Positions 5,191-23,304 of a stretch of DNA of 64,000 bases are shown piece after piece; within the stretch, counting starts at the first letter, position 1, and each line of letters starts with the position of its first letter. The position numbers and the translations under genes are program-made. This DNA is from Zwartia panacis (GTDB taxonomy: Bacteria > Pseudomonadota > Gammaproteobacteria > Burkholderiales > Burkholderiaceae_B), in assembly GCF_030410395.1 (NCBI RefSeq), contig NZ_JAUHHF010000003.1, positions 186,001 to 250,000 of the forward strand, given 5' to 3'. The notes below the pieces were generated by a model. The model searched no databases. It saw nothing but the letters and a program-made list of their open reading frames with translations, and had not been told where the DNA came from.

Positions 5191-5297
5191 TTCCACACCA
5201 TTTCATCATCAAAGTAGAAGCATGATGCGTAAGCAACATTACACTGTGATGCAAAATTGATGGCATTTATATGACAACGCGCATGTCATCGATAAGC

Positions 5298-8355: not shown

Positions 8356-8356
8356 G

Positions 8357-9118
8357 TCAAGCTCCCGATATGGAGGGTTGATACAAACTAGCAATATTGA
8401 CGTCGACGCCACTCAAGATGCGATTTCTGGGGCGCGCGAAACTTCCCTGTCTCTGTTTGGATGGCTGCATACGCGCTACGGTCAGAGCCTGCAGCGCTGC
8501 TGCCTGCATAGGATCAACTACCGGCACACCGACTGCGTCAGAGACGAGTCGCGCATAACCCGCAAGCACTGCACCACACAAAATGATGACATCCGAGCCA
8601 TCTTGTTGCACAAGCTTTTCAGAAGCAAGGATCAAGGCCTGAGCGACTTGGGGATCTGCATCTGTCACGCTAAAAGCACTCGGCATTTCGATCGCCCGCC
8701 ATTTCGATACACGTGATGCAAAGCCATAGGATGCCGTCAACTCCTCGTAAACAGGCACCATCGAGGCACCAAGTGTCAGACAACCGATCTTGCCGCCAAG
8801 CATGCCCGCCGTCACCAAAGCCGCTTCGGCCATGCCCACCACGGGTATATCCAGCATCTCACGCAAAGCCATTAATCCTGTATCGATCGACACGCCCAGC
8901 ACCAAGACATCATGTCCATTCTGATGCGTGGCGGCCAGTCTAAGCATCTCGGCAAGCGCAATCGCGTTTTCCGAACGGCTACTGATGATAGCGGGACCCG
9001 TTTGAGCGGTATACGCATGAATAGTCGCTTGCTCCCCCACCACGAACTGAGCCTGTTCCAGTAGCCGTTGAGTCACATGCTCACTGGTGTTGGGGTTGAT
9101 GAGCAATATATTCATCAT
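8357..9118 (-). CDS. Asp/Glu/hydantoin racemase-family protein 1
   Basis: This 253-aa protein starts ILLINPNTSEHVTQRLL, the hallmark of hydantoin racemases. Members use two cysteines as opposing acid and base. Here the first site reads VLGVSIDTGL, without Cys (V76/S77). The second site reads IILCGAVLAGYA with C181 kept, although shifted one place from the usual GCAGM. A one-base racemase mechanism of the standard type is therefore doubtful. A decarboxylase, isomerase or altered racemase is possible. It lies 7 bases downstream of the GntR gene and one base before the PuuE-like gene, in one operon. Confidence 0.82.
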   Translation of the reverse strand: MMNILLINPNTSEHVTQRLLEQAQFVVGEQATIHAYTAQTGPAIISSRSENAIALAEMLRLAATHQNGHDVLVLGVSIDTGLMALREMLDIPVVGMAEAALVTAGMLGGKIGCLTLGASMVPVYEELTASYGFASRVSKWRAIEMPSAFSVTDADPQVAQALILASEKLVQQDGSDVIILCGAVLAGYARLVSDAVGVPVVDPMQAAALQALTVARMQPSKQRQGSFARPRNRILSGVDVNIASLYQPSISGA

Positions 9119-9125
9119 GATCGTT

Positions 9126-9824
9126 TCATTCTTCAGAAAAAATTTTAGCGAGGTCGACCTCTGAGTCGGCAGGCTCTAGATTTAGACTACCCTCAATATG
9201 ATTAAGGTGCTCGAGCATGAGACGCTGGCCACCTTCAACATCACGCTTGGAGATTGCCTCGACGATTAAACTGTGCTCATCGGCCAGACAACTCGATGCA
9301 GTCGGCGCGTCATACAAAATAATAATCAGGCAGGTCAAGGTGGAAAGTTCACGCATTGTGCGCGCGAGCGCCTGATTCCCTGCCAGCTCGGCCAAGAGAG
9401 TGTGAAACTCACCCGAAAGACGCACAATGAGTCTTTTGTCTTCACGCCTTCTGGCCTCGTGCTCCAGCGCGCAATGCTGGCGCAAACGCTCGATGCGCTC
9501 GGGCGTCAAGTTTTCAATCAATCTGCGGACAAGTTCTGGTTCGATCAGTCGCCTGGCTTCAAAAACATGCAGCGCCTGCTCAATTGTGGGTCGCGCGACA
9601 TACGCACCGCGCTGCGGATACAGATCTACAACCTGCTCGTGCGCAAGTCGCGCCAGCACTTCACGCACTCTGGCGCGACTCACTTTAAAGATTTCAGCAA
9701 GCCGCTCTTCAACGAGCTTTGTTCCAGGATGCAACCGATGCTCCAGGATGGCGACATAAATCTTTTCATACATTTCGTCTTGCGTGTTTTCACGCTTTAA
9801 CCGAGCAGAAACCTTTGACTGCAT
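9126..9824 (-). CDS. GntR-family transcriptional regulator (FCD type)
   Basis: This 232-aa regulator has an N-terminal winged helix-turn-helix (YVAILEHRLHPGTKLVEERL, then VSRARVREVLARLAHE and LYPQRGAYVARP) and an all-helical effector domain from about residue 80 with the histidines expected of FCD members. The chosen ATG (MQSKVSARL) has AAGGA five bases upstream. It is nested between two racemase-family genes and probably controls this divergent hydantoin locus. Such regulators usually bind a carboxylate pathway intermediate. Confidence 0.88.
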   Translation of the reverse strand: MQSKVSARLKRENTQDEMYEKIYVAILEHRLHPGTKLVEERLAEIFKVSRARVREVLARLAHEQVVDLYPQRGAYVARPTIEQALHVFEARRLIEPELVRRLIENLTPERIERLRQHCALEHEARRREDKRLIVRLSGEFHTLLAELAGNQALARTMRELSTLTCLIIILYDAPTASSCLADEHSLIVEAISKRDVEGGQRLMLEHLNHIEGSLNLEPADSEVDLAKIFSEE

Positions 9825-9852
9825 GTAATTCCTTTTTATATTCGAAACGGAA

Positions 9853-10578
9853 CTATACCCAGCTAAACAACTTTCCCCACCCTTTGATTTCAGCTGGGTT
9901 GACACCTACCTTGCGAAGAGCACCCCACACTGTCGTACTGACCGTATCAAGCAACACTGCTGAGCTTTTTTGCTCAAACGCATCAGCAAGCTGCGCGGCT
10001 CGCAAATTCGTGCAGTAGGTGACGATGGCTTCAGGTTTGGCCTGACTGACCGTCTGCAAATCTTTTTCTATTGTGTCTGGCTCAACCAGTGCAAAATCAT
10101 AATTGACTGAGATGTCGTGATGGACTTCACTGACGACCTCGACACCTGCGGCCGCGTATTGTCTGACAATTTTCTGCTGAACATCCTCCGTGTAAGGGCT
10201 CACAATACCCAGACGCTTGATCTTCTTCAGAGCTATCAATTCATTTAAAGCCAATACAGCTGTCGATGCGGGTATACCCGTGCGTGCGGTAATTCTCTCG
10301 CATAGCGAAATATCTTTTTCAAATCCCATCCAGCCCGCCGAGGTACCGCTCCAGGTAATCACATCGGGTTTAGCGTCGGCCAACATCTCAGCTGCCGCCA
10401 GGATATTGCTGTCATCAAACTGCCCAAGCGCTTGATCTGTAAGAGAAATATTCGTGACTCGAAAACGGGCGAAGTGAGCATGCACATTAGGCAATTCCCT
10501 CAGGATCGCATTTGTCAGGGGCTCAAGAGCCGTATTGGACGAAGGTGTCAACACACCAATTCGGATCACCTTTTGCAT
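9853..10578 (-). CDS. Maleate isomerase/arylmalonate decarboxylase-like racemase-fold protein
   Basis: This 241-aa protein has the Asp/Glu racemase fold, opening IRIGVLTPSSNTALEP as in maleate isomerases and arylmalonate decarboxylase. The first catalytic cysteine is replaced (ITWSGTSAGW, S77), while the second is kept in IVTYCTNLRAA (C189). A single C-terminal-lobe cysteine is the arrangement of arylmalonate decarboxylase, not of racemases or maleate isomerase. It heads the minus-strand operon, divergent from the hydantoinase gene, with AAGGA before the ATG. The substrate is unknown; a decarboxylase or isomerase of a small diacid is the best guess. Confidence 0.75.
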   Translation of the reverse strand: MQKVIRIGVLTPSSNTALEPLTNAILRELPNVHAHFARFRVTNISLTDQALGQFDDSNILAAAEMLADAKPDVITWSGTSAGWMGFEKDISLCERITARTGIPASTAVLALNELIALKKIKRLGIVSPYTEDVQQKIVRQYAAAGVEVVSEVHHDISVNYDFALVEPDTIEKDLQTVSQAKPEAIVTYCTNLRAAQLADAFEQKSSAVLLDTVSTTVWGALRKVGVNPAEIKGWGKLFSWV

Positions 10579-10660
10579 ACTCAGTCCTTTTTACTGTTGA
10601 CTTTAATGTCTACGTCATTGTAAACATTATGTAACAACCAATATATCAATAATGATAAAT

Positions 10661-10708
10661 GCTGGCACGTGTTTTGCTTGAGTAAACACAAGCAAGTGAT
10701 GTGCCAGC
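10661..10708. promoter_or_regulatory. Bipartite hairpin/palindrome upstream of hydantoinase
   Basis: GCTGGCAC (10661-10668) pairs perfectly with GTGCCAGC (10701-10708). Inside it, TTGCTTG (10674-10680) pairs with CAAGCAA around an 8-base loop, leaving a symmetric mismatched middle. It lies between the divergent racemase-like and hydantoinase genes. It may act as DNA, as a double operator for the GntR protein, or as a folded RNA leader. The sequence alone does not decide. Confidence 0.5.
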
Positions 10709-10742
10709 CGAGACAACGTAGTTCCTTCTAATGAGGGAAAGT

Positions 10743-10844
10743 ATGAGCAAGCATCAAAGCGCGATGTATGCACTGATGTTGACAATTGATCGCCCCAAGT
10801 TGGGGCAATACGCTTTTAACGCACTGAAATTGGAGCATGTTTGA
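10743..10844 (+). CDS. Possible 33-aa leader peptide/short ORF before hydantoinase
   Basis: A 33-codon ORF opens with ATG seven bases after GAGG and stops with TGA one base before the hydantoinase ATG. The peptide starts MSKHQSAMYALMLTID and ends LKLEHV; I do not recognise it. The stop-start spacing (TGATATG) suggests translational coupling, and the GGAG used by the hydantoinase lies within this ORF. It could be a regulatory leader, a real small protein, or chance. Confidence 0.35.
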   Translation: MSKHQSAMYALMLTIDRPKLGQYAFNALKLEHV

Positions 10845-10845
10845 T

Positions 10846-12264
10846 ATGAGTCACGTACTCGACTTAATCATCAAGAACGCAAAAATCGCGACGGCATCGG
10901 ATGTTTTTATGGCGGATATTGGTATCAAGGGTGAGCAGATCGTGATGATCGGCAGCCACCTGCCAGAGGCAAACAAGACAATCGACGCCGCAGGTCGGGT
11001 GGTGACTCCCGGGGGGGTGGATGCGCATTGCCATCTGGATCAGCCGATGCCCGCTCCTATCAAAATGGCCGATAACTTTGAAACTGGGACGCGCTCGGCT
11101 GCGTGCGGTGGAACCACCACCGTCATCCCTTTCGCAGCGCAGGAAAAAGGGCAATCCCTGCGTGACGCTGTCAAAGAATATCACCGACGCTCCGACGGTC
11201 GAGCGCACGTTGATTACACCTTTCATCTGATCGTGAGCGATCCAACTCCCACCGTCTTGAATGAAGAGCTCCCCGCACTGATTGCAGAAGGCTACACCTC
11301 GTTCAAAATCTACATGACCTACGACGATCTCAAGCTCAACGATGGGCAGATCCTCGATGTACTGTCCGTGGCCAAGCAGCATGGGGCGATGGCCATGATT
11401 CATGCGGAAAATGCTGACTGTATCGAGTGGCTGACCCGCAGGCTTGAGGCTGCAGGTCAAACTGCGCCTCGCTTTCATGGGCATTCCAGACCCATGCTGG
11501 TCGAACGCGAAGCGACCCACCGTGCAATTGCGTTATCTGAACTTGTCGATGTTCCGATACTCATTGTTCATGTATCTGGACGCGAAGCTGTTGAGCAAAT
11601 TCGCTGGGCGCGTAGCCATGGCCTTCAAATTTTTGCGGAAACCTGCCCCCAGTACCTATTTCTGACCGCAGCAGATTTAGGCATCGACAATAGCTATCTT
11701 GGTGCCAAGTGCATATGCAGTCCACCACCAAGAGACCAAAAAAATCAGGAAGTTATCTGGAATGCGCTAAGTGATGGCCTGTTTTCAGTATTTTCCTCAG
11801 ATCACGCGCCCTTCAATTACGAAAGTCCTGAAGGTAAAAAACCGGGTGGTCAAGAAGTTGCGTTCAGGCACATTCCAAATGGAATACCCGGACTTGAAAC
11901 ACGTTTACCCCTTTTGTACTCCGAGGGCGTGCTCGGCGGTCGTATTTCTCTCACCAAGTTTGTCGAGCTGACCTCCACCAATCCGGCCAAGGCTTACGGA
12001 CTTCACCCCCTCAAAGGCACCATCGCACCGGGCTCTCACGCTGATCTCGTGATCTGGGATGAAAAACCCATCACAATCCAAAACAGCGCTTTGCATCATG
12101 CAGTCGACTACACACCTTACGAAGGGATTGAGCTCAAGGCCTGGCCGGCAATGACACTGAGCCGCGGTGAGATTGTCTGGGATGGCCAAAATTTCCACCC
12201 ACGTCTTGGCAAAGGACAATTTTTGTCTTGTGGCAAGCCGACTTTGATGACAACAGGTCGCTAG
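10846..12264 (+). CDS. hydA: Dihydropyrimidinase / D-hydantoinase
   Basis: This 472-aa cytoplasmic amidohydrolase opens the ring of dihydropyrimidines or 5-substituted hydantoins to N-carbamoyl amino acids. All metal ligands are visible: DAHCHLDQ (H61, H63), the carbamylated lysine in SFKIYMTYDD (K154), MIHAEN, IVHVSGREA and SSDHAPF. The start was set at the second ATG (MSHVLDL) because GGAG is 10 bases before it but only one base before the upstream ATG. It is followed after 9 bases by a racemase-family gene and then by TRAP transporter genes. The matching N-carbamoylases lie about 20 kb away in the same window. The preferred substrate (uracil-type or hydantoin) is not certain. Confidence 0.9.
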   Translation: MSHVLDLIIKNAKIATASDVFMADIGIKGEQIVMIGSHLPEANKTIDAAGRVVTPGGVDAHCHLDQPMPAPIKMADNFETGTRSAACGGTTTVIPFAAQEKGQSLRDAVKEYHRRSDGRAHVDYTFHLIVSDPTPTVLNEELPALIAEGYTSFKIYMTYDDLKLNDGQILDVLSVAKQHGAMAMIHAENADCIEWLTRRLEAAGQTAPRFHGHSRPMLVEREATHRAIALSELVDVPILIVHVSGREAVEQIRWARSHGLQIFAETCPQYLFLTAADLGIDNSYLGAKCICSPPPRDQKNQEVIWNALSDGLFSVFSSDHAPFNYESPEGKKPGGQEVAFRHIPNGIPGLETRLPLLYSEGVLGGRISLTKFVELTSTNPAKAYGLHPLKGTIAPGSHADLVIWDEKPITIQNSALHHAVDYTPYEGIELKAWPAMTLSRGEIVWDGQNFHPRLGKGQFLSCGKPTLMTTGR

Positions 12265-12273
12265 GTCAAAGTC

Positions 12274-13029
12274 ATGCGTATCCTGCTCATTAATCCAAAT
12301 ATCTCCCAAAGCGTCTCTGATCTCATTGACACTGAGGCCAAGCTCACAGCAAGCGCTGAAACGCAAATTCAGACAGTCACAGCCCCCTTCGGTGTGGCGT
12401 ATATCGAGACCCGCTTTGAAGCCATGATCGGCGCCTATGCCGCCGCACAGCTTGCCGGCGATCATGCAGGTGAATACGATGCATTAGTTGTCGCCGCCTT
12501 CGGTGATCCTGGTATGGAAGGCCTCAAGGAGGTGTTGCCCTGTCCAGTGGTAGGCTTGACTCAAGCAGCGCTGGCAAGCGCCTGTCTGCTCGGCAACAAA
12601 ATTTCAATTGTTGCGATTTCAAGACGGATCAAAGCCTGGTACGCCGAGACAGTAGCCTCTTATGGATTAACTGAACGACTGGTCAGTATTCGGAGTCTCG
12701 AAGAACCCCTCCCGAACATCGGTTCAGTTCAACAAGACAAAGCTGCCAGTTTGTTGACAGCCGCCAATCTGTGCGTCAGTGATGATGGCGCAGATGTCAT
12801 TATTTTGGCGGGAGCACCCTTGGCTGGACTGGCTCGCAGCCTCGCTGGCCAACTGCCTGTTCCCGTCGTGGATGGTGTCTCAAGTGCCGTCAGACATGCA
12901 GAGACTTTAGTTCGCCTGAATGCCGGTCAAACGCGCACGGGAAGTTTTGCGCCGCCCCCGCTCAAACCCAATGCAGGACTCCCCCAATCAATCGCGACAC
13001 TGCTCGCGAATGGTCATCAACGCCTTTAA
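12274..13029 (+). CDS. Asp/Glu/hydantoin racemase-family protein 2 lacking both cysteines
   Basis: This 251-aa protein opens ILLINPNISQSVSDLID as hydantoin racemases do. Position one of the catalytic pair is Ala (VVAAFGDPG, A75, normally CFGDPG) and position two has no Cys (IILAGAPLAGLA). The rest of the fold is intact, and cysteines occur only elsewhere (PCP, SACLL). Placement between the hydantoinase and TRAP genes points to the same pathway. Either it acts by another mechanism or it has a binding or regulatory role. It is not a paralogue drifting to a pseudogene, since the frame is intact and the other motifs are kept. Confidence 0.8.
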   Translation: MRILLINPNISQSVSDLIDTEAKLTASAETQIQTVTAPFGVAYIETRFEAMIGAYAAAQLAGDHAGEYDALVVAAFGDPGMEGLKEVLPCPVVGLTQAALASACLLGNKISIVAISRRIKAWYAETVASYGLTERLVSIRSLEEPLPNIGSVQQDKAASLLTAANLCVSDDGADVIILAGAPLAGLARSLAGQLPVPVVDGVSSAVRHAETLVRLNAGQTRTGSFAPPPLKPNAGLPQSIATLLANGHQRL

Positions 13030-13047
13030 CCCTGAAAAGGAAGCATC

Positions 13048-14049
13048 ATGAAACAGAAAACACCCCGCACCCTCCTGAGCACTGCAATCGGGACACTCCT
13101 GTTAGCAGCGACCTGTATGCAGGCGAACGCGCAAGACAAATTGCAAATAGCAGGAAACTTTGCAACCTCCCATCCAAGTAGCGTTGCAGTTGATAAAGTG
13201 TTTAAAGATGAGGTTGCACGCCTGACCAACAATAAACTTCAAGTGGATGTGTTCCCCGCCATGCAACTGGGTGGCGCGAAAGAAAACGTCGATGGCGTAC
13301 GCGCTGGAACACTTGGTATGACCTGGGTGGGCGCATCGTTCATGTCACGAATCGCACCCGAAATCGAAGCAGTGAGTTTGCCCTTTGTTTTCAAAAATCG
13401 GGAAGCGGCCTACCGAGTCATTGATGGTCCCGTGGGTCAGGCAATCGATCAAAAGCTGCTGGAAAAAGGCTTTGTCGTGCTTGGCTGGATGGAACTCGGA
13501 ATGCGCAATATCACGAACAGTAAGGGTCCAATCAAAACTGTAGACGATCTGAAAGGCATGAAAATACGCATGCAACCCAATGAAACGCACTTGGCTTCTT
13601 TCCGTGCACTGGGTGCAAACCCTGTTGCGATGGATGTCAAAGAGCTTTACTCCGCACTTGAGCAAAAGGTGGTCGATGGTCAGGAAAATCCATATACCGT
13701 GATCGATGCCAATCGCTATGCTGAGGTACAGAAGTATCTGTCGAACTCCTCGCATTTCTTTGATTTCATCGTCGTCGTTGCAAGCAAACGCGTATTTGAC
13801 AAGATGAGTCCTGCCAATCAAAAGGCCGTTCGCGAAGCGATGGCAAAGACGGTCGCATATCAACGCAGCCTGGCAGCAGAAAACGATCTCAAAGCACTCA
13901 ACAATCTCAAAGCAAAGATGACCTACACAGAAATCCCACCTGAGACTTTTGAGCAAATGCGCAAACTCACAGCACCAGTGATCGAAAGCGTCAAAAAACG
14001 TGCGGGTGCCGATCTGGTCAATCAAGTCATTGCCGAAACATCCAAATAA
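13048..14049 (+). CDS. TRAP transporter receptor DctP, system 1
   Basis: This 333-aa periplasmic receptor has a signal peptide ending ATCMQANA/QDK. The DctP marks are GNFATSHPSSVAVDKVFKDE, then MKIRMQPNETHLASFRALGA, whose Arg usually binds the ligand carboxylate, and YSALEQKVVDGQENP. AAGGA lies before the ATG. It starts a receptor-DctQ-DctM set directly after the hydantoinase and racemase genes and probably belongs to that operon. The ligand is likely an organic acid, a carbamoyl amino acid or a related carboxylate, by inference. Confidence 0.92.
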   Translation: MKQKTPRTLLSTAIGTLLLAATCMQANAQDKLQIAGNFATSHPSSVAVDKVFKDEVARLTNNKLQVDVFPAMQLGGAKENVDGVRAGTLGMTWVGASFMSRIAPEIEAVSLPFVFKNREAAYRVIDGPVGQAIDQKLLEKGFVVLGWMELGMRNITNSKGPIKTVDDLKGMKIRMQPNETHLASFRALGANPVAMDVKELYSALEQKVVDGQENPYTVIDANRYAEVQKYLSNSSHFFDFIVVVASKRVFDKMSPANQKAVREAMAKTVAYQRSLAAENDLKALNNLKAKMTYTEIPPETFEQMRKLTAPVIESVKKRAGADLVNQVIAETSK

Positions 14050-14073
14050 ATAACCTCTGTTCTGGACTGCCCA

Positions 14074-14598
14074 ATGATGAATTCAATCCCAGCTACCTAT
14101 GACACCACAACCCCGTTGGGTAAATGTTTTCGAGCTTTAGATTTGATTTTGATTTGGGCAGTGATCCTGATATTTGTATTCATGGTCGGCATTGTCTCTG
14201 CACAGGTGGTCATGCGATACGGCTTTAACGTATCAATTGACTGGGCTGAAGAGTCTGGCCGACTGGCATTTGTTTGGGTTGTATTTCTGGCTATTCCGCT
14301 GGCGGCGTCTCAAGGTGCACATATCGGCATCAATCTGTTTGTGGATAAGTTTTCACCCGCGAATCAACGCATCGTTCAAAGAGCCTCCGCGGCTTTATGT
14401 GCCGCGCTTTCTTTTGCGATCGCCTGGTCATGCATTGAGTTGTGTAAAGACCAATGGGATGAACAAATGGCAACAATTGACATCAGTGTCGCCTACTTTT
14501 TTGTCGCAGTCGGACTAGGAATGCTATGCACAGGATTGCACATGGCGCGCATCGCCATCACCGGCGAAATTCATCAACAGACAGGTGACGCAGAATGA
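14074..14598 (+). CDS. TRAP transporter small membrane subunit DctQ, system 1
   Basis: This 174-aa protein has four membrane spans. The family segment VMRYGFNVSIDWAEESGRLAFVWVVF is visible near residue 46 in two overlapping parts (VMRYGFN, then WAEESGR). It bridges the receptor to the large permease. Two ATG codons in tandem (14074, 14077) are possible starts. It overlaps dctM by four bases (ATGA). Confidence 0.9.
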   Translation: MMNSIPATYDTTTPLGKCFRALDLILIWAVILIFVFMVGIVSAQVVMRYGFNVSIDWAEESGRLAFVWVVFLAIPLAASQGAHIGINLFVDKFSPANQRIVQRASAALCAALSFAIAWSCIELCKDQWDEQMATIDISVAYFFVAVGLGMLCTGLHMARIAITGEIHQQTGDAE

Positions 14599-15875
14599 GT
14601 ACCTTAGTGGTTATCGGCTTTATGCTCATCGCCCTGATGGGCCTGCCAATCGCTTTTGCAATGGGTTTGAGCGCAATCGTTGCAATTTGGCTTTCAGGCA
14701 TCGATATTTCCATCATTCCTCAGCGAATGATGTACTCGGTCAACTCATTTCCCTTGATGGCAATTCCATTTTTCATGCTATCGGGCGAGTTGATGATCAA
14801 AGCAGGGATCATTGAGCGTCTCATTTCTTTTGCAAACGCATTAGTGGGTCGTGTTCGTGGAGGTCTGGCACATGTCACGATGCTGTCGGGTGCAGGCCTA
14901 GCGACGGTATCAGGCACTGCAGTATCAGACGCAAGTGCTTTGTCAGCAATTCTGGTGCCCTCGCTTTCCAAAATCTATGACAAAGGTTTTGCTACCGCAA
15001 TTGTCGCGGCAGCGGCCAACCTTGGCCCGATCATTCCACCTTCGGCTGCAATGATTGTCTATGCCTTTATGGCAGGTCCGTCTGTATCTGTTGGAGGCAT
15101 GTTCATGGCGGGTGTCGTTCCGGGCTTGTTAATCACCATAGGCTTTATGCTGTTATGCAGCTGGATCACATCAAAACGTGGCTGGAGTACGACAGGTGAG
15201 CCGTTTCAGTTCAAAAGACTATTCATAGAATTACGTCGCTCTGCGATTGTATTGTTTATGCCACTGTTGGTCATCGGAGGCATCATAGGCGGTGCCTTCA
15301 CCGCAACGGAGGGCTCCGCGATATCTGTGATCTATGCGCTCATCCTTGGTTTTTTTATTACCCGCACACTCAAGCTATCAGACTTGCCACGCATTTTGAT
15401 ACGTGCAGCAATTACTACGGCTGTAGTCGGTGCCCTTATTGCTTTTGCCTCAGTCATTACTTATTTAATGACCGTAGATCTGATGCCTCAAAAACTTTCA
15501 GAACTGCTGTTTGCGGTGACAAAGGATCCTCTTGTTTACCTGATTCTTGTGGCCCTACTGCTCTTTGTTGTTGGCATGTTTCTCGAGTCCAACTCAGCTT
15601 ACATCATGCTAGTGCCATTGCTTCATCCAATCGCGCTTCAATATGGCATCGATCCTCTTCACTTTGGATTTTTATTTGTCCTGAATCTCGTGATTGGAAT
15701 GTTGACGCCACCTGTCGGTGTGGTTCTCTTTGTTGTATGTGGTGTCACAGGTGTTCGCATGCGCGAGCTCGTTGCAAATATCTGGCCATTTGTCGCGTTG
15801 ATGTATGCCGTTCTATTTCTTTGTATGTTTTTTCCAGCGATTGTCACGACCCTGCCCCGAAGCATGGGTTACTGA
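14595..15875 (+). CDS. TRAP transporter large permease DctM, system 1
   Basis: This 426-aa inner-membrane protein has about twelve hydrophobic segments. It has the DctM repeats: SFPLMAIPFFMLSGELM near residue 50 and AANLGPIIPPSAAMIVYA near residue 140, with LLTPPVGVVLFVV-like text near the C terminus (MLTPPVGVVLFVVCGV). It carries out Na+-driven solute uptake with its DctP and DctQ. Its ATGA overlap with dctQ shows coupling. Confidence 0.94.
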   Translation: MSTLVVIGFMLIALMGLPIAFAMGLSAIVAIWLSGIDISIIPQRMMYSVNSFPLMAIPFFMLSGELMIKAGIIERLISFANALVGRVRGGLAHVTMLSGAGLATVSGTAVSDASALSAILVPSLSKIYDKGFATAIVAAAANLGPIIPPSAAMIVYAFMAGPSVSVGGMFMAGVVPGLLITIGFMLLCSWITSKRGWSTTGEPFQFKRLFIELRRSAIVLFMPLLVIGGIIGGAFTATEGSAISVIYALILGFFITRTLKLSDLPRILIRAAITTAVVGALIAFASVITYLMTVDLMPQKLSELLFAVTKDPLVYLILVALLLFVVGMFLESNSAYIMLVPLLHPIALQYGIDPLHFGFLFVLNLVIGMLTPPVGVVLFVVCGVTGVRMRELVANIWPFVALMYAVLFLCMFFPAIVTTLPRSMGY

Positions 15876-15905
15876 CAATTATTTTTATTTTTACCGGAGC
15901 ACATG

Positions 15906-16967
15906 ATGTCATCAATCAAGCACTATCTTGCCCCTTTCATTGCACCAATTGCACTCAGTGCCCTCATGCTTTCGGCACCAGCCATTCAAGCTCAAAACAT
16001 CACGCTTAAAGTTATTGGTCAACCATTGGCAACAGGTAATATTCAAAAGAATCGTGAGCAGCCATTCTTTGAACAACTTGCTGCCAAAACAGGTCTACCA
16101 ATTACTGTTGAATATAAGCCACTCGACACCCTTGGCATCAAGGACACCGAACAACTTCGCATCATGAAAGCAGGTTTGTTTGATATGGTTTCTCTACGAT
16201 TTTCACAAAACTCGCGTGATGAACCCGCACTCATCGGAATGGATTTGGTAGGAGGAAGTCCTGACTATGAAAAAAGTCGAAAAGTAGTCGATGCCTGGTT
16301 ACCCATTCTTGATGCACGCTTACAAAAACAGTTTGGCATCAAGCTTCTGGGTCATTGGCCTTTTGGACCACAAATGATTTTTTGTAAAAAGCCAATCACA
16401 CAATTATCTGACGTCAAAGGGATGAAAATCCGTGTCGCAGATCAGAGTATGGCTAAGTTTTTAGAATTAGTGGGTGCAACGCCAGTTCCAATGGCCTTTA
16501 CGGAAGTACATCAAGCACTATCCTTAGGGGTAATCGACTGTGCAGTGACAGGCCCTAGTTCTGCTAATTCAGCAGCTTGGTCAGAGATTGTCACTCATCA
16601 ATTACCCCTTGGTTTCCAAATGAGCATGAACGGATATGGCATATCACTTAAGACTTGGAATCGTCTTAAGCCAGATCAGCAAGCCAAACTCCAAGCTGCG
16701 TTTACCGAGCTGACTAATGATATTTGGAAATACTCCAAAGAGCTGTCAGATGACGCTTTGCGCTGCAATGAAGGTTCTGATCCTTGCACCACAGGGAAAA
16801 AATATAAAGTCAAAACAGTCCCTGTCTCTGAGGCGGATATCAAACTCGTAGGCACTGCTATCGACAAAGTTTCCTTCCCAGCGTGGGCACCTGTCTGCGA
16901 CAAAACGAACCCTACCTGCTCGGCCGATTGGAAAAAAACAGTTGGACCGATTGTTGGTGTGAAATAA
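15906..16967 (+). CDS. TRAP transporter receptor DctP, system 2
   Basis: This 353-aa periplasmic receptor has a signal peptide ending APAIQAQ. Motifs include KGMKIRVADQSMAKFLELVGA and VHQALSLGVIDCAVTGP. The start is set at the second ATG because CGGAG then has a 6-base spacer. It has an unusual C terminus with four cysteines (LRCNEGSDPC and VCDKTNPTC), likely two disulfides in the periplasm, which DctP proteins usually lack. The gene starts 30 bases after dctM of system 1, so both systems may share a transcript. Ligand unknown. Confidence 0.88.
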   Translation: MSSIKHYLAPFIAPIALSALMLSAPAIQAQNITLKVIGQPLATGNIQKNREQPFFEQLAAKTGLPITVEYKPLDTLGIKDTEQLRIMKAGLFDMVSLRFSQNSRDEPALIGMDLVGGSPDYEKSRKVVDAWLPILDARLQKQFGIKLLGHWPFGPQMIFCKKPITQLSDVKGMKIRVADQSMAKFLELVGATPVPMAFTEVHQALSLGVIDCAVTGPSSANSAAWSEIVTHQLPLGFQMSMNGYGISLKTWNRLKPDQQAKLQAAFTELTNDIWKYSKELSDDALRCNEGSDPCTTGKKYKVKTVPVSEADIKLVGTAIDKVSFPAWAPVCDKTNPTCSADWKKTVGPIVGVK

Positions 16968-16981
16968 GCTAAGGCGTCATG

Positions 16982-17569
16982 ATGAAAACACGGCTTGAAA
17001 ATATTCTGGGCATTCTGTTCGGGACTATATTTATGACACTTGTTGCGCTCGTCACTGTCGAGACGATCGTAAGAAAGTTATTTAATGTTTCTCTGCAGGG
17101 CGTAGATGAACTAGGAGGCTATGCATTGGCCATCGGGTCAACCATCGCTTTTAGTCTAGCCGTGTTTGGACGCAATCACATCCGTGTGGACGTCTTGCAT
17201 CAACATTATCCAGACTGGCTGAAGGCCTTAATGAATTGGCTTTCAGCCTTCAGTTTGGCAGCATTTGCAGTTTTTTTATGTTGGGTTGCCATTCAAGTTT
17301 TACTCGATTCCGTGACCTACGGCAGTACAGCCCAAACCCCATGGGCCACGCCACTGATTTATCCACAATCTCTTTGGTACGCAGGTTTGGTGACATTTGC
17401 CATCGTTTCAGTTTGCTTTGCTGCGTGGGCAACTTATCTACTCTTGACCGGAAAGCAACAAGAACTCATCCAAGAGTTTCAACCTAAAAGTGCAAAAGAA
17501 GAGCTTAAAGAAGAACTTGATGATTTGGCACAACGTTCAAATCTGGATGAAATCGTGAGCAAGCCATGA
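16982..17569 (+). CDS. TRAP transporter small membrane subunit DctQ, system 2
   Basis: This 195-aa protein has four spans and the family stretch TIVRKLFNVSLQGVDELGGY near residue 28. It carries a charged C-terminal tail (KSAKEELKEELDDLAQ) that is longer than in DctQ of system 1. AAGG sits seven bases before this ATG; the ATG three bases earlier is possible. It overlaps dctM of system 2 by four bases. Confidence 0.88.
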   Translation: MKTRLENILGILFGTIFMTLVALVTVETIVRKLFNVSLQGVDELGGYALAIGSTIAFSLAVFGRNHIRVDVLHQHYPDWLKALMNWLSAFSLAAFAVFLCWVAIQVLLDSVTYGSTAQTPWATPLIYPQSLWYAGLVTFAIVSVCFAAWATYLLLTGKQQELIQEFQPKSAKEELKEELDDLAQRSNLDEIVSKP

Positions 17570-18858
17570 ATCCAACACTGATTACACTCGCTTTTTTAAT
17601 CATGGTATTCATGATGATTGCAGGGATACCCATTGCGGTATCGATGGCACTAGTTGGTATCATTGGCGGCATCGCTGTCTATGGAATGCCATTCATGAAT
17701 TCAATTGCCCCAGTGCTATGGGGTGTCCAAAATGAAAATCTTCTAACCTCAATTCCGCTTTTTGTACTTCTGGGTGAACTCTTATTACGATCAGGAATAG
17801 CTGACCGTATGTATCTCGCTCTTTCAGCATGGTTTGGTCGCCTCCCAGGAGGATTGCTTCATACAAATATTGGCAGTTGCGCACTCTTTGCAGCGACATC
17901 TGGCTCATCCGTCGCCACAGCCGCAACAATTTCAACTGTGGCATTACCTTCACTGATGAAGCGCGGTTATCCTATTAGGCCTTCACTTGGAACAATCGCT
18001 GCAGGCGGCACACTGGGAATTTTAATTCCACCAAGCGTCAATATGATCATATACGGATCATTGACTAACAATTCGATTGGAAAACTTTTCGTCGCAGGCA
18101 TTATTCCCGGTCTTTTATTGACGGGAGCCTTCATGCTTTACATTGCCATCACAAGCATCCTCAGCGGCAATACGCTTCGAGAAGAGAAAGTCAGTTTTAA
18201 AGACAAGCTTATTGTTTCTCAGCACCTCATCGCACCTTTAATCGTTTTTGGTGTGGTGATGGGCAGCTTGTACTTTGGCATTGCGACTGCGACCGAAAGC
18301 GCTGCATTAGGTGTAACAACCGTACTTTTCTTTGTGGTGAAATCAGGCCGATTAAGTTGGCCTCTCTTGCGTGGTTGTTTTATTTCCACTGCCCGCGTTT
18401 CAGGCATGATCCTGCTGATCATCGCTGCTGCGTTCATCTTAAATCTGACCATCAGCTTGACCGGTGTCGCTGAAGTGATGACAAAGTGGGTCACAAGCCT
18501 TGGACTTTCACCTGTAGGATTGATCCTTGGTTTAATTTTGTTTTATCTGATATTGGGAATGTTCATGGATGTGTTGTCCATGATGGTCGCGACGATTCCT
18601 GTCACCTATCCGATTGCGATCGCGCTAGGAATTGATCCAATCTGGTTTGGTATTTTTGTCATCCTGATGTGCGAACTAGGTTTGATCACGCCGCCTGTGG
18701 GCATGAATTTATTTGTTGTTCATGGGATTCGTTCGGATTCAGGCGATATCAGTGATGTGATGTGGGGTGCCCTGCCATACGCCGTGATCATCATCCTGTT
18801 TACTCTTTTCCTGATGGTCTTCCCGGAAATCGTAACGTGGTTACCAGGGAAAATGTAA
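17566..18858 (+). CDS. TRAP transporter large permease DctM, system 2
   Basis: This 430-aa permease has about twelve spans. DctM marks are LLTSIPLFVLLGELLLRSG near residue 57, TLGILIPPSVNMIIYGS near residue 148, and GLITPPVGMNLFVVHGI near the end. It is about as long as DctM of system 1 but clearly divergent from it, so the pair is not a recent duplication. It ends the TRAP block; ptxABCD follows after a 134-base gap with its own promoter signals. Confidence 0.94.
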   Translation: MNPTLITLAFLIMVFMMIAGIPIAVSMALVGIIGGIAVYGMPFMNSIAPVLWGVQNENLLTSIPLFVLLGELLLRSGIADRMYLALSAWFGRLPGGLLHTNIGSCALFAATSGSSVATAATISTVALPSLMKRGYPIRPSLGTIAAGGTLGILIPPSVNMIIYGSLTNNSIGKLFVAGIIPGLLLTGAFMLYIAITSILSGNTLREEKVSFKDKLIVSQHLIAPLIVFGVVMGSLYFGIATATESAALGVTTVLFFVVKSGRLSWPLLRGCFISTARVSGMILLIIAAAFILNLTISLTGVAEVMTKWVTSLGLSPVGLILGLILFYLILGMFMDVLSMMVATIPVTYPIAIALGIDPIWFGIFVILMCELGLITPPVGMNLFVVHGIRSDSGDISDVMWGALPYAVIIILFTLFLMVFPEIVTWLPGKM

Positions 18859-18896
18859 CGAGCTAATTGTTTTGTATTCATAAAAATGAAATATTA

Positions 18897-18930
18897 CCTT
18901 CACAGAATTGTCATTTAACCAAACCATAAT
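18897..18930 (+). promoter_or_regulatory. Pho-box-like element and -10 before ptxA
   Basis: CCTTCAC-AGAA-TTGTCAT (18897-18914) fits the PhoB site layout of two 7-base repeats spaced 4 bases apart. The second repeat matches the consensus CTGTCAT at 6 of 7 positions, and the whole at 13 of 18. Ten bases later comes CATAAT (18925-18930), one base off the -10 consensus. This is the geometry of PhoB-activated promoters, where the box replaces the -35. The first repeat is weak. Confidence 0.5.
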
Positions 18931-18956
18931 TCTCTGGTCTTCCACTTTATTTGTAT

Positions 18957-18981
18957 GTGAGCGCGCGGTCTTCGCGCTCAC
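18957..18981 (+). promoter_or_regulatory. Leader hairpin upstream of ptxA start
   Basis: GTGAGCGCG (18957-18965) and CGCGCTCAC (18973-18981) form a perfect 9-bp stem with a 7-base loop. No T run follows, so it is not an intrinsic terminator. It ends 11 bases before the ptxA ATG, where a ribosome would bind, so it may hold down or tune initiation. It could equally be a DNA operator. Confidence 0.5.
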
Positions 18982-18992
18982 TCAAATCAAAA

Positions 18993-19850
18993 ATGAAACC
19001 AGAGAGTCTTGGTAGCAATCTATACCCCCCCTTATCGGCAACTGCCATTCAAACCCAGGCACTTGAAGTCATTTATCCGAATGGCTACAAGGCCTTGCAC
19101 AGCACCACACTCAAGATTGCCCAAGGTTCCTTTGTCGTACTGCTCGGCACCTCCGGAGCGGGAAAATCGACGTTGCTGCGTTCACTCAATGGCCTAGTTG
19201 AGCCCTCTAGCGGCCATGTTAGCGTCGAGGGACTGGGTGATTTAAAGGATCCAGCCATTCTCAAACGCCATCGCCGACAAACGGGCATGGTGTTTCAGCA
19301 GCACCATCTAATCGGTCGCCTGAATGTGTTGGACAACGTTTTATTGGGTCGTTTAGGCTATCACGCTGGCTGGCGTATGTTCACCCCATGGACGCGAGCC
19401 GAGAAGGAACAAGCGCTGGCGGTGATTGAGCGCGTCGGATTGCTCGACCGTGCACTGACACGCGCAGATCAACTCTCCGGTGGACAACAACAGCGGGTAG
19501 GCATGGCACGTGCCCTGATCCAGCAACCCAAAATCTTGCTCGCCGACGAGCCTGTGGCTAGCCTCGATCCCAACACTTCTGTGCGCTTGCTGCAATCCAT
19601 GCACGATATTTGCAAATCCGATGGTTTAACAGCTGTCGTCAGTTTGCACCAAGTCGATCTCGCCAGACAGTTTGCGGATCGGATTATTGGTCTCAAAGGC
19701 GGCGCGATGGTCTTTGATGGTGCGCCCGAGCTGCTGACCCCTGAACGCGCCGAAGCCCTGTATCAGCACGTCAGCACATCGCCTTCCCCCACTGATGCGA
19801 CCAGTCGCGTCAAACCTTCTTTCCAAGAATTATCACTATCCGGAGTCTGA
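18993..19850 (+). CDS. ptxA: Phosphite/phosphonate ABC importer ATPase
   Basis: This 285-aa ATPase is of the PhnC/PtxA type. Walker A is GTSGAGKSTLL, the signature is LSGGQQQRVGMARAL, and Walker B is ILLADEPVASLDP, which is the PhnC variant. Linkage to a receptor, a permease and a PtxD-type dehydrogenase points to phosphite rather than phosphonate uptake. The ATG of MKPESLG was chosen. An upstream TTG would place the leader hairpin inside the gene, and no clear ribosome site supports either start. It is separated by two bases from ptxB. Confidence 0.88.
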   Translation: MKPESLGSNLYPPLSATAIQTQALEVIYPNGYKALHSTTLKIAQGSFVVLLGTSGAGKSTLLRSLNGLVEPSSGHVSVEGLGDLKDPAILKRHRRQTGMVFQQHHLIGRLNVLDNVLLGRLGYHAGWRMFTPWTRAEKEQALAVIERVGLLDRALTRADQLSGGQQQRVGMARALIQQPKILLADEPVASLDPNTSVRLLQSMHDICKSDGLTAVVSLHQVDLARQFADRIIGLKGGAMVFDGAPELLTPERAEALYQHVSTSPSPTDATSRVKPSFQELSLSGV

Positions 19851-19852
19851 AT

Positions 19853-20722
19853 ATGAGTCGTCGTTCCTTTTTATCCGCAGGTGTTGTGCTGATGTGCATG
19901 ATGGCCAACCAAGCCTACGCCCAAGGTCGCGACCCCTCCACGTTGCGCGTGGCGCTGTTACCCGATGAAAACGCCGCGACTCTGATCCAGAACGCGCAAC
20001 CCCTTAAAGCCTATCTTGAGCGCACTCTCAACAAAAAAATCGAAATCATCGTGACGACTGATTACTCGTCCATGATCGAAGCCATGCGCTTTGGTCGCAT
20101 CGAAGTCGCATACTTTGGTCCTTTCTCCTACGTGTTGGCCAAATCACGCGCCCCCGCGATTGAACCATTTGCCGTTGGTGTCGAGCGTGGCGCCCCGACT
20201 TACAACTCAGTATTAATCGCCAATGCCGCAGGCGACGTCAAAGCGTTGGCGGATATCAAAGGTAAGCCCTTTGCCTTTGGCGACCAGGCATCCACCTCCA
20301 GTCACCTCGCTCCCCGCGCCTATTTGCTCAAGACCGCGCAACTTGATGGTGAAAAAGACTACAAACCTGTATTTTTAGGCACCCACGATGCAGTCGCTCG
20401 TGCGGTCCAAGCTGGGCAAGTACCTGCTGGCGCGCTTTCCAAACCGATTTTGGATTCATTGATCGAAAAAAAAATCATCGATCCTTCGAAAATCGTTCAA
20501 ATTGGGTTGTCTGATCCAATCCCCAACTATCCAATCGTCATGCAAGGCAACCTAACCCCTGCACTCAAAGAATCCGTGCGCGGCGCCTTCCTCGACATGA
20601 AAGATAAAGAAGTGCTCAAATCGTTTCGCGTCGAGGGGTTTGTCGCGACCGACGACAAATCCTACGACGTGTTGCGTGACACAGCGACCGTCCTGAAACT
20701 TGACTTGGGCAAGATGAAGTAA
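19853..20722 (+). CDS. ptxB: Phosphite/phosphonate ABC importer periplasmic receptor
   Basis: This 289-aa receptor of the PhnD/PtxB family has a signal peptide (SFLSAGVVLMCMMANQAYAQ). The family opening LRVALLPDENAATLIQNAQP is followed by VAYFGPFSYVLA and FAFGDQASTSSHLAPRAYLL, the loop that holds the oxyanion in PhnD/PtxB structures. GGAG lies 7 bases before the ATG. Its TAA overlaps the ptxC ATG by one base. Whether it prefers phosphite, hypophosphite or methylphosphonate is not visible. Confidence 0.88.
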   Translation: MSRRSFLSAGVVLMCMMANQAYAQGRDPSTLRVALLPDENAATLIQNAQPLKAYLERTLNKKIEIIVTTDYSSMIEAMRFGRIEVAYFGPFSYVLAKSRAPAIEPFAVGVERGAPTYNSVLIANAAGDVKALADIKGKPFAFGDQASTSSHLAPRAYLLKTAQLDGEKDYKPVFLGTHDAVARAVQAGQVPAGALSKPILDSLIEKKIIDPSKIVQIGLSDPIPNYPIVMQGNLTPALKESVRGAFLDMKDKEVLKSFRVEGFVATDDKSYDVLRDTATVLKLDLGKMK

Positions 20723-21540
20723 TGCAACCCAGCGTCTCTATACTTGCCTCGTCCTATTCGACAATCCTCACTCAGGCGCAAGTCTCCGCACAACGTCAAA
20801 AGCGCATTGTCATCGCAATCCTCGCGCTTTGTGTTGCGGCTTTGTGGATCACTGGTTTTTTTGATCCCGCGCGATTTATCGAGGGCGGTCCCGCTATCGC
20901 TCAACTTGCGTCCGAAATGGTGCCACCGGACTTCACACGCTGGCATCACTGGCTCAAACCATTGCTAGACACACTGGCGATGTCGATTGCCGGTACTGCT
21001 TTGGCAGTCTGCTTGTCCCTGCCCCTGGCACTTCTTGCCGCGCCCAATACGACGCCTTTTCCACTAGTCGCGAGACTCGTGCGGGTCGTGTTGGCAGCCA
21101 TGCGCTCGGTTCCTGAAATCATTTTAGGCATTCTGTTTGTCGCAGCAGTGGGGTTTGGTGCTCTGCCCGGTGTACTGGCTCTGGCACTCCACTCGGTCGG
21201 CATGGTCGGTAAGTTTTACGCAGAGGCCATTGAGCACGTAGATCCCAAGCCTCTCGAGGCCGCACGTGCAGCAGGCGGGAACGGGTTTCAGGTGATTACC
21301 CATGCCGTGTTACCTCAGGTGCTTCCACAGCTGACGGACATCACCATTTACCGGTGGGAGTATCACTTTCGCGCCTCAGCAGTATTGGGGATTGTCGGTG
21401 CGGGAGGCATCGGATTTGAACTGATGGCAGCGCTGAGATTAATCAAATACGACGAAGTCTCCGCGATCCTGCTCACCATTCTTGCCTGCGTGGTGGTAGT
21501 TGATGGCATCGGTGGCGCACTACGCAAAGCCCTCAAATAA
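20722..21540 (+). CDS. ptxC: Phosphite/phosphonate ABC importer permease
   Basis: This 272-aa inner-membrane permease is of the PhnE/PtxC type. It has a cytoplasmic N terminus, a first span near residue 35, and the coupling loop PKPLEAARAAGGNGFQVI followed by AVLPQVLPQLTDI. It completes the importer with PtxA and PtxB, and the one-base overlap with ptxB shows coupling. Confidence 0.9.
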   Translation: MQPSVSILASSYSTILTQAQVSAQRQKRIVIAILALCVAALWITGFFDPARFIEGGPAIAQLASEMVPPDFTRWHHWLKPLLDTLAMSIAGTALAVCLSLPLALLAAPNTTPFPLVARLVRVVLAAMRSVPEIILGILFVAAVGFGALPGVLALALHSVGMVGKFYAEAIEHVDPKPLEAARAAGGNGFQVITHAVLPQVLPQLTDITIYRWEYHFRASAVLGIVGAGGIGFELMAALRLIKYDEVSAILLTILACVVVVDGIGGALRKALK

Positions 21541-21563
21541 CCTCTGCCCTCAAATCTGAAAGC

Positions 21564-22556
21564 ATGTCTGAAAAAATCGTTGTCACGAATCGTATTCACT
21601 CTGAAGTACGCGCACGCCTTGAACAACTTGGCCATGTCGTCGTCAATCCATCCATCGAACCCTGGTCTCAATCCGTTTTATCCGAGCAACTCAAAGACGC
21701 CACGGCCATGATGGGGTTCATGACCGACTGCGTGGATGAAAAACTTTTAAAGCAAGCACCGTCACTCAAAATCGTGGCCTGTGCGCTCAAAGGTTTTGAC
21801 AACTACGATATCCCGGCGTGTACTGCACGAGGAATCTGGGTCAGTATTGTTCCAGACCTGTTAACCGAACCCACTGCCGAGCTTGCTGTTGGTTTGGGAA
21901 TCTCTCTCGGACGTTTTATCCTGCAGGGTGATCACCTGATGCGTACGACCGCCTTTAAGGGTTGGCGTGCCCAATTGTTTGGTCAAGGCTTACACAACTC
22001 AGTTGTCGCGATTCTTGGACTCGGGATGGTCGGTCAAGCGATCGCTCAGCGCCTTTCAGGCTTTGGCTGCAAACATCTCCTCGGGGTTGATCCGCTCAAC
22101 ACCATGGCCGGGGTGATCTCTTGCAACCTTGAAGAAGCCCTCACCACTGCCGACTATGTGTTTGTGGCGATCCCGCTAACAGACAGCTCAATCAATATGC
22201 TCAATCATGAACAACTGGTTTATTGCAAACCAGGTCAACTCATGATCAACGTCGGACGAGGGTCGGTCGTCAATGAACAAGCTGTAGCCGATGCACTTGA
22301 ACAAGGTCGTCTTGCAGGCTATGCAGCCGATGTATTTGCCTGCGAAGACTGGGGTCTGGAAAATCGACCACACCAAATCGAGCCCAGACTGCTTGCACAT
22401 CCTAATACAGTCTTGACGCCACACCTGGGTTCAGCAGTCAGTGCGGTCAGGCTGGCGATTGAGCATCGGGCGGCGGATAACATCATTGCGGCACTAAGAG
22501 GCGAAGTCCCGCCTGACGCGATGAATCAAGACGCTATGTCTGTGAGCGCTGTTTGA
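21564..22556 (+). CDS. ptxD: Phosphite (phosphonate) dehydrogenase
   Basis: This 330-aa D-2-hydroxyacid-dehydrogenase-family enzyme oxidises phosphite to phosphate with NAD+. It keeps the residues known for PtxD at matching places. M53 (GFMTD), K76 (ALKGFDNYD) and W134 have identical numbering. R232 (GRGSVV), E261 (CEDW) and H287 (TPHLGSA) lie five residues before R237, E266 and H292 of the Pseudomonas enzyme. The Rossmann motif is GLGMVG (152-157), and D176 after the second strand favours NAD over NADP. PtxD-specific text includes CTARGIW, VPDLLTEPTAELA and GYAADVF. It is 23 bases after ptxC. The usual ptxE regulator gene is absent next to it. Confidence 0.9.
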   Translation: MSEKIVVTNRIHSEVRARLEQLGHVVVNPSIEPWSQSVLSEQLKDATAMMGFMTDCVDEKLLKQAPSLKIVACALKGFDNYDIPACTARGIWVSIVPDLLTEPTAELAVGLGISLGRFILQGDHLMRTTAFKGWRAQLFGQGLHNSVVAILGLGMVGQAIAQRLSGFGCKHLLGVDPLNTMAGVISCNLEEALTTADYVFVAIPLTDSSINMLNHEQLVYCKPGQLMINVGRGSVVNEQAVADALEQGRLAGYAADVFACEDWGLENRPHQIEPRLLAHPNTVLTPHLGSAVSAVRLAIEHRAADNIIAALRGEVPPDAMNQDAMSVSAV

Positions 22557-22581
22557 AATTACGCTATAAAAAGCCGAGACT

Positions 22582-23304
22582 TTAGATCAACCCGCCATTA
22601 GGCTGAATGATCTGACCATGAATCCATGAGGCCCGACTCGAGGCCAGATAAGCCACGACATCACCCACCTCGTGCGGCAGACCGATGCGGTTGAAGGGAC
22701 TCGCGGCGGCCGCGCGTTGTTTGGCTTCGTCGGTCTTGCCTGAATGAAAGAGGTCAGTATCCACCGCGCCCGGCGCGACGGCATTGACGCGCACACCGCG
22801 CACAGCCAACTCCTTGGCCATCGAGCGCAATAGCCCCTCGACCGCCGCTTTGGTCGCCGTATAGGCACCACCGCCCGGCACGGCATTGCGCACCATCGAC
22901 GTTGTGATCCCGATGATCGTGCCACCATCCTGCACTTCGCGAGCCGCCTCTGTCAGCACGTTGAACGCACCAAACACGTTGACTTCCATCAGCTCGCGGA
23001 AATTGTCATGACTGAACTGGCCGATGGGTAAATAGGGTTTGTTGATACCTGCGTTGGCCACGACGACCTGAGGACGCGTACCGAAATCCTTGGCTGCATG
23101 TTCAAAGACTTGTTTCACAGCAGCAGGGTCACGTACATCCGCCGCATAGGCTTTAATCTGACCCACTTTTTCGAGCGCCCTAGCCTCGTCGGGCTTGGTT
23201 ACATAGGTGAACGCCACGCGAAAACCATCACGTGCGAGTGCATCCACACACGCTGCACCAATGCCACGTGAACCGCCAAAAACAATGGCTAGGGGTTGAG
23301 TCAT
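22582..23304 (-). CDS. SDR-family oxidoreductase (FabG-like)
   Basis: This 240-aa short-chain dehydrogenase has the cofactor loop GGSRGIGAA near residue 10, NAG (VVANAGI), the Ser of GITTSMV, and YTATK as the Tyr-Lys pair near residue 157. The ATG directly follows the TAA of dppF-like (TAAATG), so it is the last gene of the dipeptide-transport operon. A role in reducing or oxidising a product of the imported solute is likely but undefined. Classical 3-oxoacyl-ACP reductase activity is an alternative. Confidence 0.85.
   Translation of the reverse strand: MTQPLAIVFGGSRGIGAACVDALARDGFRVAFTYVTKPDEARALEKVGQIKAYAADVRDPAAVKQVFEHAAKDFGTRPQVVVANAGINKPYLPIGQFSHDNFRELMEVNVFGAFNVLTEAAREVQDGGTIIGITTSMVRNAVPGGGAYTATKAAVEGLLRSMAKELAVRGVRVNAVAPGAVDTDLFHSGKTDEAKQRAAAASPFNRIGLPHEVGDVVAYLASSRASWIHGQIIQPNGGLI

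Follow-up and report, generated by a model that had tools for sequence, protein, structure and literature searches.

The question raised by this locus is whether four adjoining genes of Zwartia panacis (Burkholderiaceae_B), which encode an ATP-binding cassette (ABC) transporter and a dehydrogenase, allow phosphite to be taken up and used as a source of phosphorus. The genes lie in a stretch of 64,000 nucleotides (contig NZ_JAUHHF010000003.1, positions 186,001 to 250,000 of the forward strand), hereafter called the window, and all positions are counted from its first letter. Judged from the sequence, positions 18993-22556 very probably represent ptxABCD, an assimilatory phosphite-oxidation operon, i.e., a known function and known parts in a new host, the operon type itself being already known. 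This reading, proposed in a preliminary description of the same DNA, is supported by the placement of the dehydrogenase within the PtxD clade, by Foldseek matches of its predicted structure and, independently, by the phosphite-type pocket of the receptor.

Gene order and conservation of the operon

The four close or overlapping genes announced in the preliminary description are all found on the plus strand, where successive genes are separated by a gap of 2 bases, an overlap of 1 base, and a gap of 23 bases:

18993-19850, plus strand: ptxA, ABC transporter ATPase (TIGR02315 PhnC, 297.3 bits against a cut-off of 266.1)
19853-20722, plus strand: ptxB, predicted periplasmic phosphite receptor (closest PDB match PtxB 5o2j, E value 6.2e-87; pocket residues)
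20722-21540, plus strand: ptxC, ABC transporter permease (TIGR01097 PhnE, 294.2 bits against a cut-off of 216.7)
21564-22556, plus strand: ptxD, predicted phosphite dehydrogenase with Phe139 (PDB 4ebf, E value 2.9e-93; tree, residues, and predicted structure)

The families assigned earlier (ABC ATPase, PhnD/PtxB receptor, PhnE/PtxC permease, and dehydrogenase) are borne out by NCBIfam models and PDB matches. The start of ptxA at 18993 is preferred over a TTG at 18951 because its ATG is aligned with an ATG in all six genus sequences compared. The operon is separated by 134 bases from the upstream gene of a tripartite ATP-independent periplasmic (TRAP) transporter, which ends at 18858, and by 25 bases from a convergent downstream gene (22582-23304).

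A scan of genome contigs yielded 402 relatives, of which the best 80 were kept; single loci are denoted by L numbers. A-, B-, and C-like genes accompany ptxD at a distance of no more than 6.5 kb in 70 of these loci, and the other 10 lack full linkage, some of them owing to a contig end. The six nearest relatives among the kept loci (L019-L024) all come from metagenome assemblies. The ratio of non-synonymous to synonymous substitution rates (dN/dS) did not exceed 0.063 in six of 12 gene comparisons of the window with L019, L023, and L024; dS was saturated in the remaining six, and the values thus indicate constraint but not its exact strength.

The receptor and the ligand of the transporter

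The ptxB product scores above the cut-off for phosphate/phosphite/phosphonate receptors (246.4 against 112.05 bits) and below that of the PhnD equivalog (204.6 against 261.1 bits). Its closest solved relatives are 5o2j, named above, and the PtxB-type 5lv1 (E value 7.2e-78) and 5jvb (2.0e-74), and the next match follows at 3.9e-22. The phosphite pocket of Te_PtxB is reported to consist of Y55, Y100, S130, T131, S132, and H160, with Y208 capping it together with D22 (PMC5700983). All of these positions are matched in the window protein by Y71, Y87 or Y93, S147, T148, S149, H178, Y226, and D38, respectively, with both candidates for the hinge tyrosine, Y87 and Y93, being present. The nine checked residues are complete in 72 of 81 PtxB rows; two rows are short of them through gaps only (L054 and L057), one carries a single change (L087), and in six the pocket is not matched (L005, L076, L080, L085, L088, and L097). 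In five of the latter six, all titled as alphaproteobacteria (L076, L080, L085, L088, and L097), ptxD adjoins a receptor with Trp, Asn, Phe, and Asp at the diagnostic positions, which looks more like the hypophosphite receptor HtxB than like PtxB.

It could be argued that the transporter mainly serves another oxyanion or a phosphonate and that PtxD acts on phosphite formed by other routes. The phosphonate-transport names of the ATPase and permease models, as well as the low micromolar dissociation constant reported for hypophosphite binding by Te_PtxB (PMC5700983), would fit such an arrangement. However, it appears very unlikely in view of the phosphite pocket with its capping Tyr226 and Asp38, and the genome possesses separate receptors with other pockets, one of which is a PhnD equivalog. 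The family cut-off is exceeded by five more receptors of this genome that belong to the PhnD/PtxB superfamily (L119 and L121-L124); none of them has the Asp/Tyr cap pair, and their pocket residues differ from those of PtxB. PhnJ was not found in the genome. A point on the other side is that the cap Tyr is shared by one other receptor of this genome (L135), in which Glu takes the place of Asp. Taken as a phosphonate receptor, PtxB was rejected because its pocket is of the phosphite type and the Asp/Tyr cap is absent from the other receptors of the genome. It is thus reasonable to read ptxABC as a phosphite transporter, in which PtxB would capture periplasmic phosphite by means of the STS-His motif, the pocket tyrosines, and the capping tyrosine, while PtxA and PtxC, judged by their families, would import it.

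Identity of the dehydrogenase

When the ptxD product was compared with solved structures by phmmer, the first 14 rows were all phosphite/phosphonate dehydrogenase chains (E values 2.9e-93 to 1.1e-81), and the first other enzyme was a glyoxylate reductase (8.9e-52). In E value, the best PtxD structure therefore leads this reductase by 41 orders of magnitude, and even the weakest of the 14 chains is ahead by approx. 29. The predicted structure, for which 27 window and locus sequences served as input, has a mean predicted local distance difference test score of 91.7. A Foldseek comparison of this structure with the PDB places PtxD chains in the first 28 ranks (template modelling scores of 0.88-0.94) and a glyoxylate/hydroxypyruvate reductase next. 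A tree of 100 rows (88 different), calculated by maximum likelihood, unites all 90 PtxD rows, among them the P. stutzeri and window sequences, in a single clade with 100/100 support. The 10 2-hydroxyacid dehydrogenase paralogues of the same genome fall outside this clade; they are the only outgroup, and several of them sit on long branches, as a program warning noted. Within the clade, the window protein adjoins that of L019 (89% identical) and then those of L020-L024. Clustering with glycerate or phosphoglycerate dehydrogenases, which the preliminary description had named as an outcome that would refute its reading, was not observed in this tree.

The residues point in the same direction. Met53, Leu75, Lys76, Asp79, Leu100, Trp134, Arg232, Glu261, His287, Ser290, and Arg296 are present in the window protein, including the six that had been listed earlier as PtxD active-site residues (Met53, Lys76, Trp134, Arg232, Glu261, and His287). 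Arg232, Glu261, His287, and Lys76 match the catalytic residues Arg237, Glu266, His292, and Lys76 of PtxD, and the constant offset of five that had been noticed for the later residues is confirmed, as their numbers are smaller by five than those of P. stutzeri PtxD. Met53, Lys76, and Trp134 occur in none of the 10 paralogues. An acidic residue at the cofactor position favours nicotinamide adenine dinucleotide (NAD) over its phosphate, NADP. The Asp176 previously singled out in this respect is indeed present, although its aligned position in P. stutzeri PtxD is 175, not 176; by family, the enzyme is predicted to be NAD dependent. The loop that follows Asp176 is approx. 6 residues shorter than in P. 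stutzeri PtxD, and a shortening by at least 4 residues after the cofactor-binding Asp is found in 58 of the 90 PtxD rows. Full conservation of Arg301 has been reported for PtxD homologues but not for other family members (PMC6303947). The corresponding residue is Arg296 in the window protein and Arg in 90 of 90 PtxD rows; Arg296 and Ser290, which is equivalent to Ser295, are both invariant in 27 of 27 rows.

Several observations must be weighed against the identification as PtxD. No NCBIfam equivalog names the window dehydrogenase, and its top model is a glyoxylate reductase (206.3 bits against a cut-off of 455). An Arg is also aligned at the Arg301 position in two of the 10 paralogues, and in this protein Phe takes the place of Tyr139, a residue listed as a specific feature of PtxD orthologues. 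The first of these observations would suit an ordinary glyoxylate/hydroxypyruvate or phosphoglycerate dehydrogenase that happens to lie beside a phosphonate transporter, as the best models, glyoxylate reductase and phosphoglycerate dehydrogenase, belong to the same superfamily. Nonetheless, such an enzyme is hardly credible here: it was rejected because both models remain far below their cut-offs, the PDB matches are to PtxD, and the tree nests the protein within PtxD, to which the absence of Met53, Lys76, and Trp134 from the paralogues and the phosphite-type rather than phosphonate-type receptor cap can be added. As a phosphite dehydrogenase, the protein would use the Arg232/Glu261/His287 set, Lys76, and Arg296 to oxidise phosphite to phosphate with NAD+, and the phosphate so formed would feed growth.

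A natural phenylalanine at position 139

The replacement of Tyr139 by Phe was not mentioned in the preliminary description. Of the 90 PtxD rows, nine have Phe here, namely those of the window, L019-L025, and L027, and the other 81 have Tyr. Tyr139 is hydrogen-bonded to Arg301 in a crystal structure (PMC3909101). Since it has been reported not to be important for catalysis (PMC6303947), Tyr139 can be regarded as typical of PtxD but not as defining it. Indeed, the same change engineered in Ralstonia sp. 4506 PtxD (Y139F) left the enzyme active and, with phosphite, was reported to shift the Michaelis constant from 9.35 to 5.25 uM, the turnover number from 157 to 459 per min, and their quotient (kcat/Km) from 16.84 to 87.54, i.e., about fivefold (PMC8655118). 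The Ralstonia variant and the window enzyme have Phe139 in common; however, the former is a laboratory change in another background, and its effect need not carry over. No description of a natural Phe139 enzyme or of this lineage was found among titles and the opening lines of abstracts, which cover the literature in part.

One relative within the window's clade deserves separate mention. In L026 (6965-7945), a ptxD that sits on a long branch retains Tyr139 and is accompanied by neither ptxB nor ptxC in a locus of 14.9 kb. As L026 branches among the Phe139 rows, a single gain of Phe139 with a reversal and two gains are both possible.

Promoter and regulation

PhoB-activated promoters have a Pho box with a -10 element about 10 bases downstream. 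Upstream sequences (260 bases before PtxA residue 19) of the window, L019, and L021-L024 were aligned, L020 being omitted because of a contig end. By eye, one conserved block is prominent in all six, TCAC-N5-(T/A)GTCAT-N10-CA(T/C)AAT, which in the window comprises two elements:

18897-18914, plus strand: Pho-box-like site CCTTCACAGAATTGTCAT, two half-sites 11 bases apart, in the conserved block upstream of ptxA
18925-18930, plus strand: -10-like hexamer CATAAT, 10 bases after the Pho-box-like site

The hexamer has the same 10-base spacing throughout the genus sequences and reads CATAAT in five of the six and CACAAT in L019. Box and -10 together score 18, 17, 18, 17, 19, and 20 of 24 in the window, L019, and L021-L024, respectively; the fractions of 500 first-order resamples reaching these scores (0.002, 0.054, 0.002, 0.008, 0, and 0) are not independent of each other because the sequences are related. 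When 35 gene starts of the window are ranked, the score of 18 ties for the best with that of gene 4210-5196. The latter encodes a TctC-type receptor and has a Pho-box-like match of 15/18 upstream on the minus strand (5260-5277).

The genome encodes a PhoB equivalog (311.1 against 296.2 bits). Box and -10 scores of 18, 19, and 18 of 24 were obtained before genes whose translations read as phoX, agt, and plcP, and 18 of 24 before the gene at L134:7504. Locus L134 (G000:C54:92000-111000) is a cluster with phoB, phnCD, a TIGR03364 oxidoreductase, and an iron-containing alcohol dehydrogenase and, as read from translations, also phoR, phoU, and genes for a PhoX-like phosphatase and for agt/plcP-like lipid remodelling; several genes of the cluster are preceded by Pho-box-like sites. 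On the other hand, the promoter assignment has weaknesses. The window Pho box alone scores 13/18, which shuffled sequences reach in 9.5% and 12.5% of cases, and it stands out only when the -10 element and the cross-species alignment are added. In L019, the site that scores highest by script (17/24, p 0.054) neighbours the aligned block, which reads TCAC-N5-TGTCAT followed by CACAAT. Moreover, phnC and phoU of the phoB cluster, both likely Pho genes, score only 14 and 16 of 24. A sigma-70 scan of 18700-22700 returned no site.

The preliminary description had also stated that the linked regulator gene ptxE is absent, and no gene resembling three ptxD-linked LysR genes was found within 6.5 kb of ptxD (E value threshold 1e-15). 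Since there is no LysR gene near ptxD, the operon is classed as ptxABCD rather than ptxABCDE. PhoB control is likely to be the switch for the predicted ptxA promoter: when phosphate is scarce, phosphorylated PhoB would bind to 18897-18914 and start transcription of all four genes. PhoB control of ptx is not a new idea, as the P. stutzeri ptx operon has been reported to belong to the Pho regulon (White and Metcalf 2004, cited in PMC5698055); the local detail of this genus is the loss of the linked LysR gene. Unlike the window, seven of the nearest loci beyond the genus (L025, L027-L031, and L033; e.g. UKL13-2 and Polaromonas assemblies) carry a LysR gene that is oriented divergently from ptxA. 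The distance between the two genes is 51-92 bases in six of these loci, and in L030 their called open reading frames overlap. The L028 LysR and its best match in the window genome are 26% identical.

A general either/or rule, with either a linked LysR gene or a Pho box, is not proposed. For this comparison, 89 loci were entered and 80 scored, eight being dropped for lack of a usable ptxA and one as too short. Mean Pho-box scores were 12.2 in LysR-less loci (n=18) and 11.6 in LysR-linked loci (n=62), with a p value of 0.037 that is uncorrected for relatedness. Good boxes also occur in loci counted as LysR-linked (L086, L108, and L041), and the counts depend on the search, as L041, L043, L045, and L046 are LysR-linked by a loose search and have no LysR gene by a stricter one.

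PtxD is also a marker of dissimilatory phosphite oxidation, yet, judged from the genes linked to ptxD and the upstream region of ptxA, it is highly improbable that the operon serves energy gain rather than phosphorus assimilation, as that process is reported to involve ptxDE with ptd genes (PMC10746228, PMC11933879), whereas ptxD is here linked to ptxABC, the set described as assimilatory, and a Pho-box-like promoter precedes ptxA.

Distribution and genomic sites in the genus

Among 32 genomes of the genus, denoted by G numbers, ptxD was found in seven and ptxB in six; the ptxD of G019 is located where a contig begins. The operon of the window and that of G015 stand beside the same downstream genes. 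G012 has these downstream genes and G029 the first of them, both without an adjoining ptx, and ptxB had no match in either genome. The neighbour in G029 is a 53% match to window gene 5298-5810, a homologue of which also flanks ptxA in G015. This arrangement is consistent with an empty ptx site but is only suggestive because 5298-5810 weakly matches a histone-like family and the contig measures 4.2 kb. The operon of G010 and G018 is flanked on one side by a PhyH dioxygenase gene and on the other by an isocitrate/isopropylmalate dehydrogenase-like gene. The dehydrogenase-like gene is also confirmed in G024, where the PhyH gene is assigned by position and size only. As the flanks in the window and G015 differ from those in G010, G018, and G024, at least two genomic sites have been used.

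The stretch upstream of ptxA in the window (6134-18858) contains two TRAP receptor genes, an amidohydrolase gene, and Asp/Glu racemase-type genes, among others; it differs between close relatives since the homologue of 5298-5810 directly flanks ptxA in G015. The idea that the PhyH dioxygenase encoded divergently from ptxA in the other subgroup of the genus (L101 and L103) is a hypophosphite oxidase was dropped because the solved structures closest to it are those of phytanoyl-CoA-type dioxygenases and of leucine and ectoine hydroxylases.

Comparison with known ptx operons

The window operon shares its four structural genes, the PtxD residues, and the PtxB pocket with ptxABCDE of Pseudomonas stutzeri WM88. 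It differs in the missing linked ptxE and in its PtxD, which is approx. 45% identical in structure alignments and has Phe instead of Tyr at position 139, an Asp at position 175, and the shorter loop. Prochlorococcus MIT9301, a member of a different phylum, has by description the same gene set, ptxABCD, and is reported to use phosphite as the sole phosphorus source (PMC3610870). The seven LysR-bearing loci named above have a PtxD that is 58-63% and a PtxB that is 75-78% identical to the window proteins, and they share the short loop after the cofactor Asp.

Significance

PtxD enzymes are of practical interest for the regeneration of NADH, the reduced form of NAD, and for phosphite-based selection. 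Within this context, the natural Phe139 PtxD and the Pho-type promoter are the points of this operon that merit attention. It might be, although this is a tentative and rather doubtful proposal, that this betaproteobacterial lineage exchanged control of ptx by a linked LysR activator for control by PhoB alone and that Phe139 was acquired, which together would result in fast, high-affinity scavenging. If so, phosphite scavenging would be tied to general phosphate starvation, and Phe139 would be a natural counterpart of an improvement evolved in the laboratory. For the genus, the use of phosphite is a well-supported prediction from genome sequences, and the patchy presence of ptxD among the members is in keeping with a niche trait that is gained and lost.

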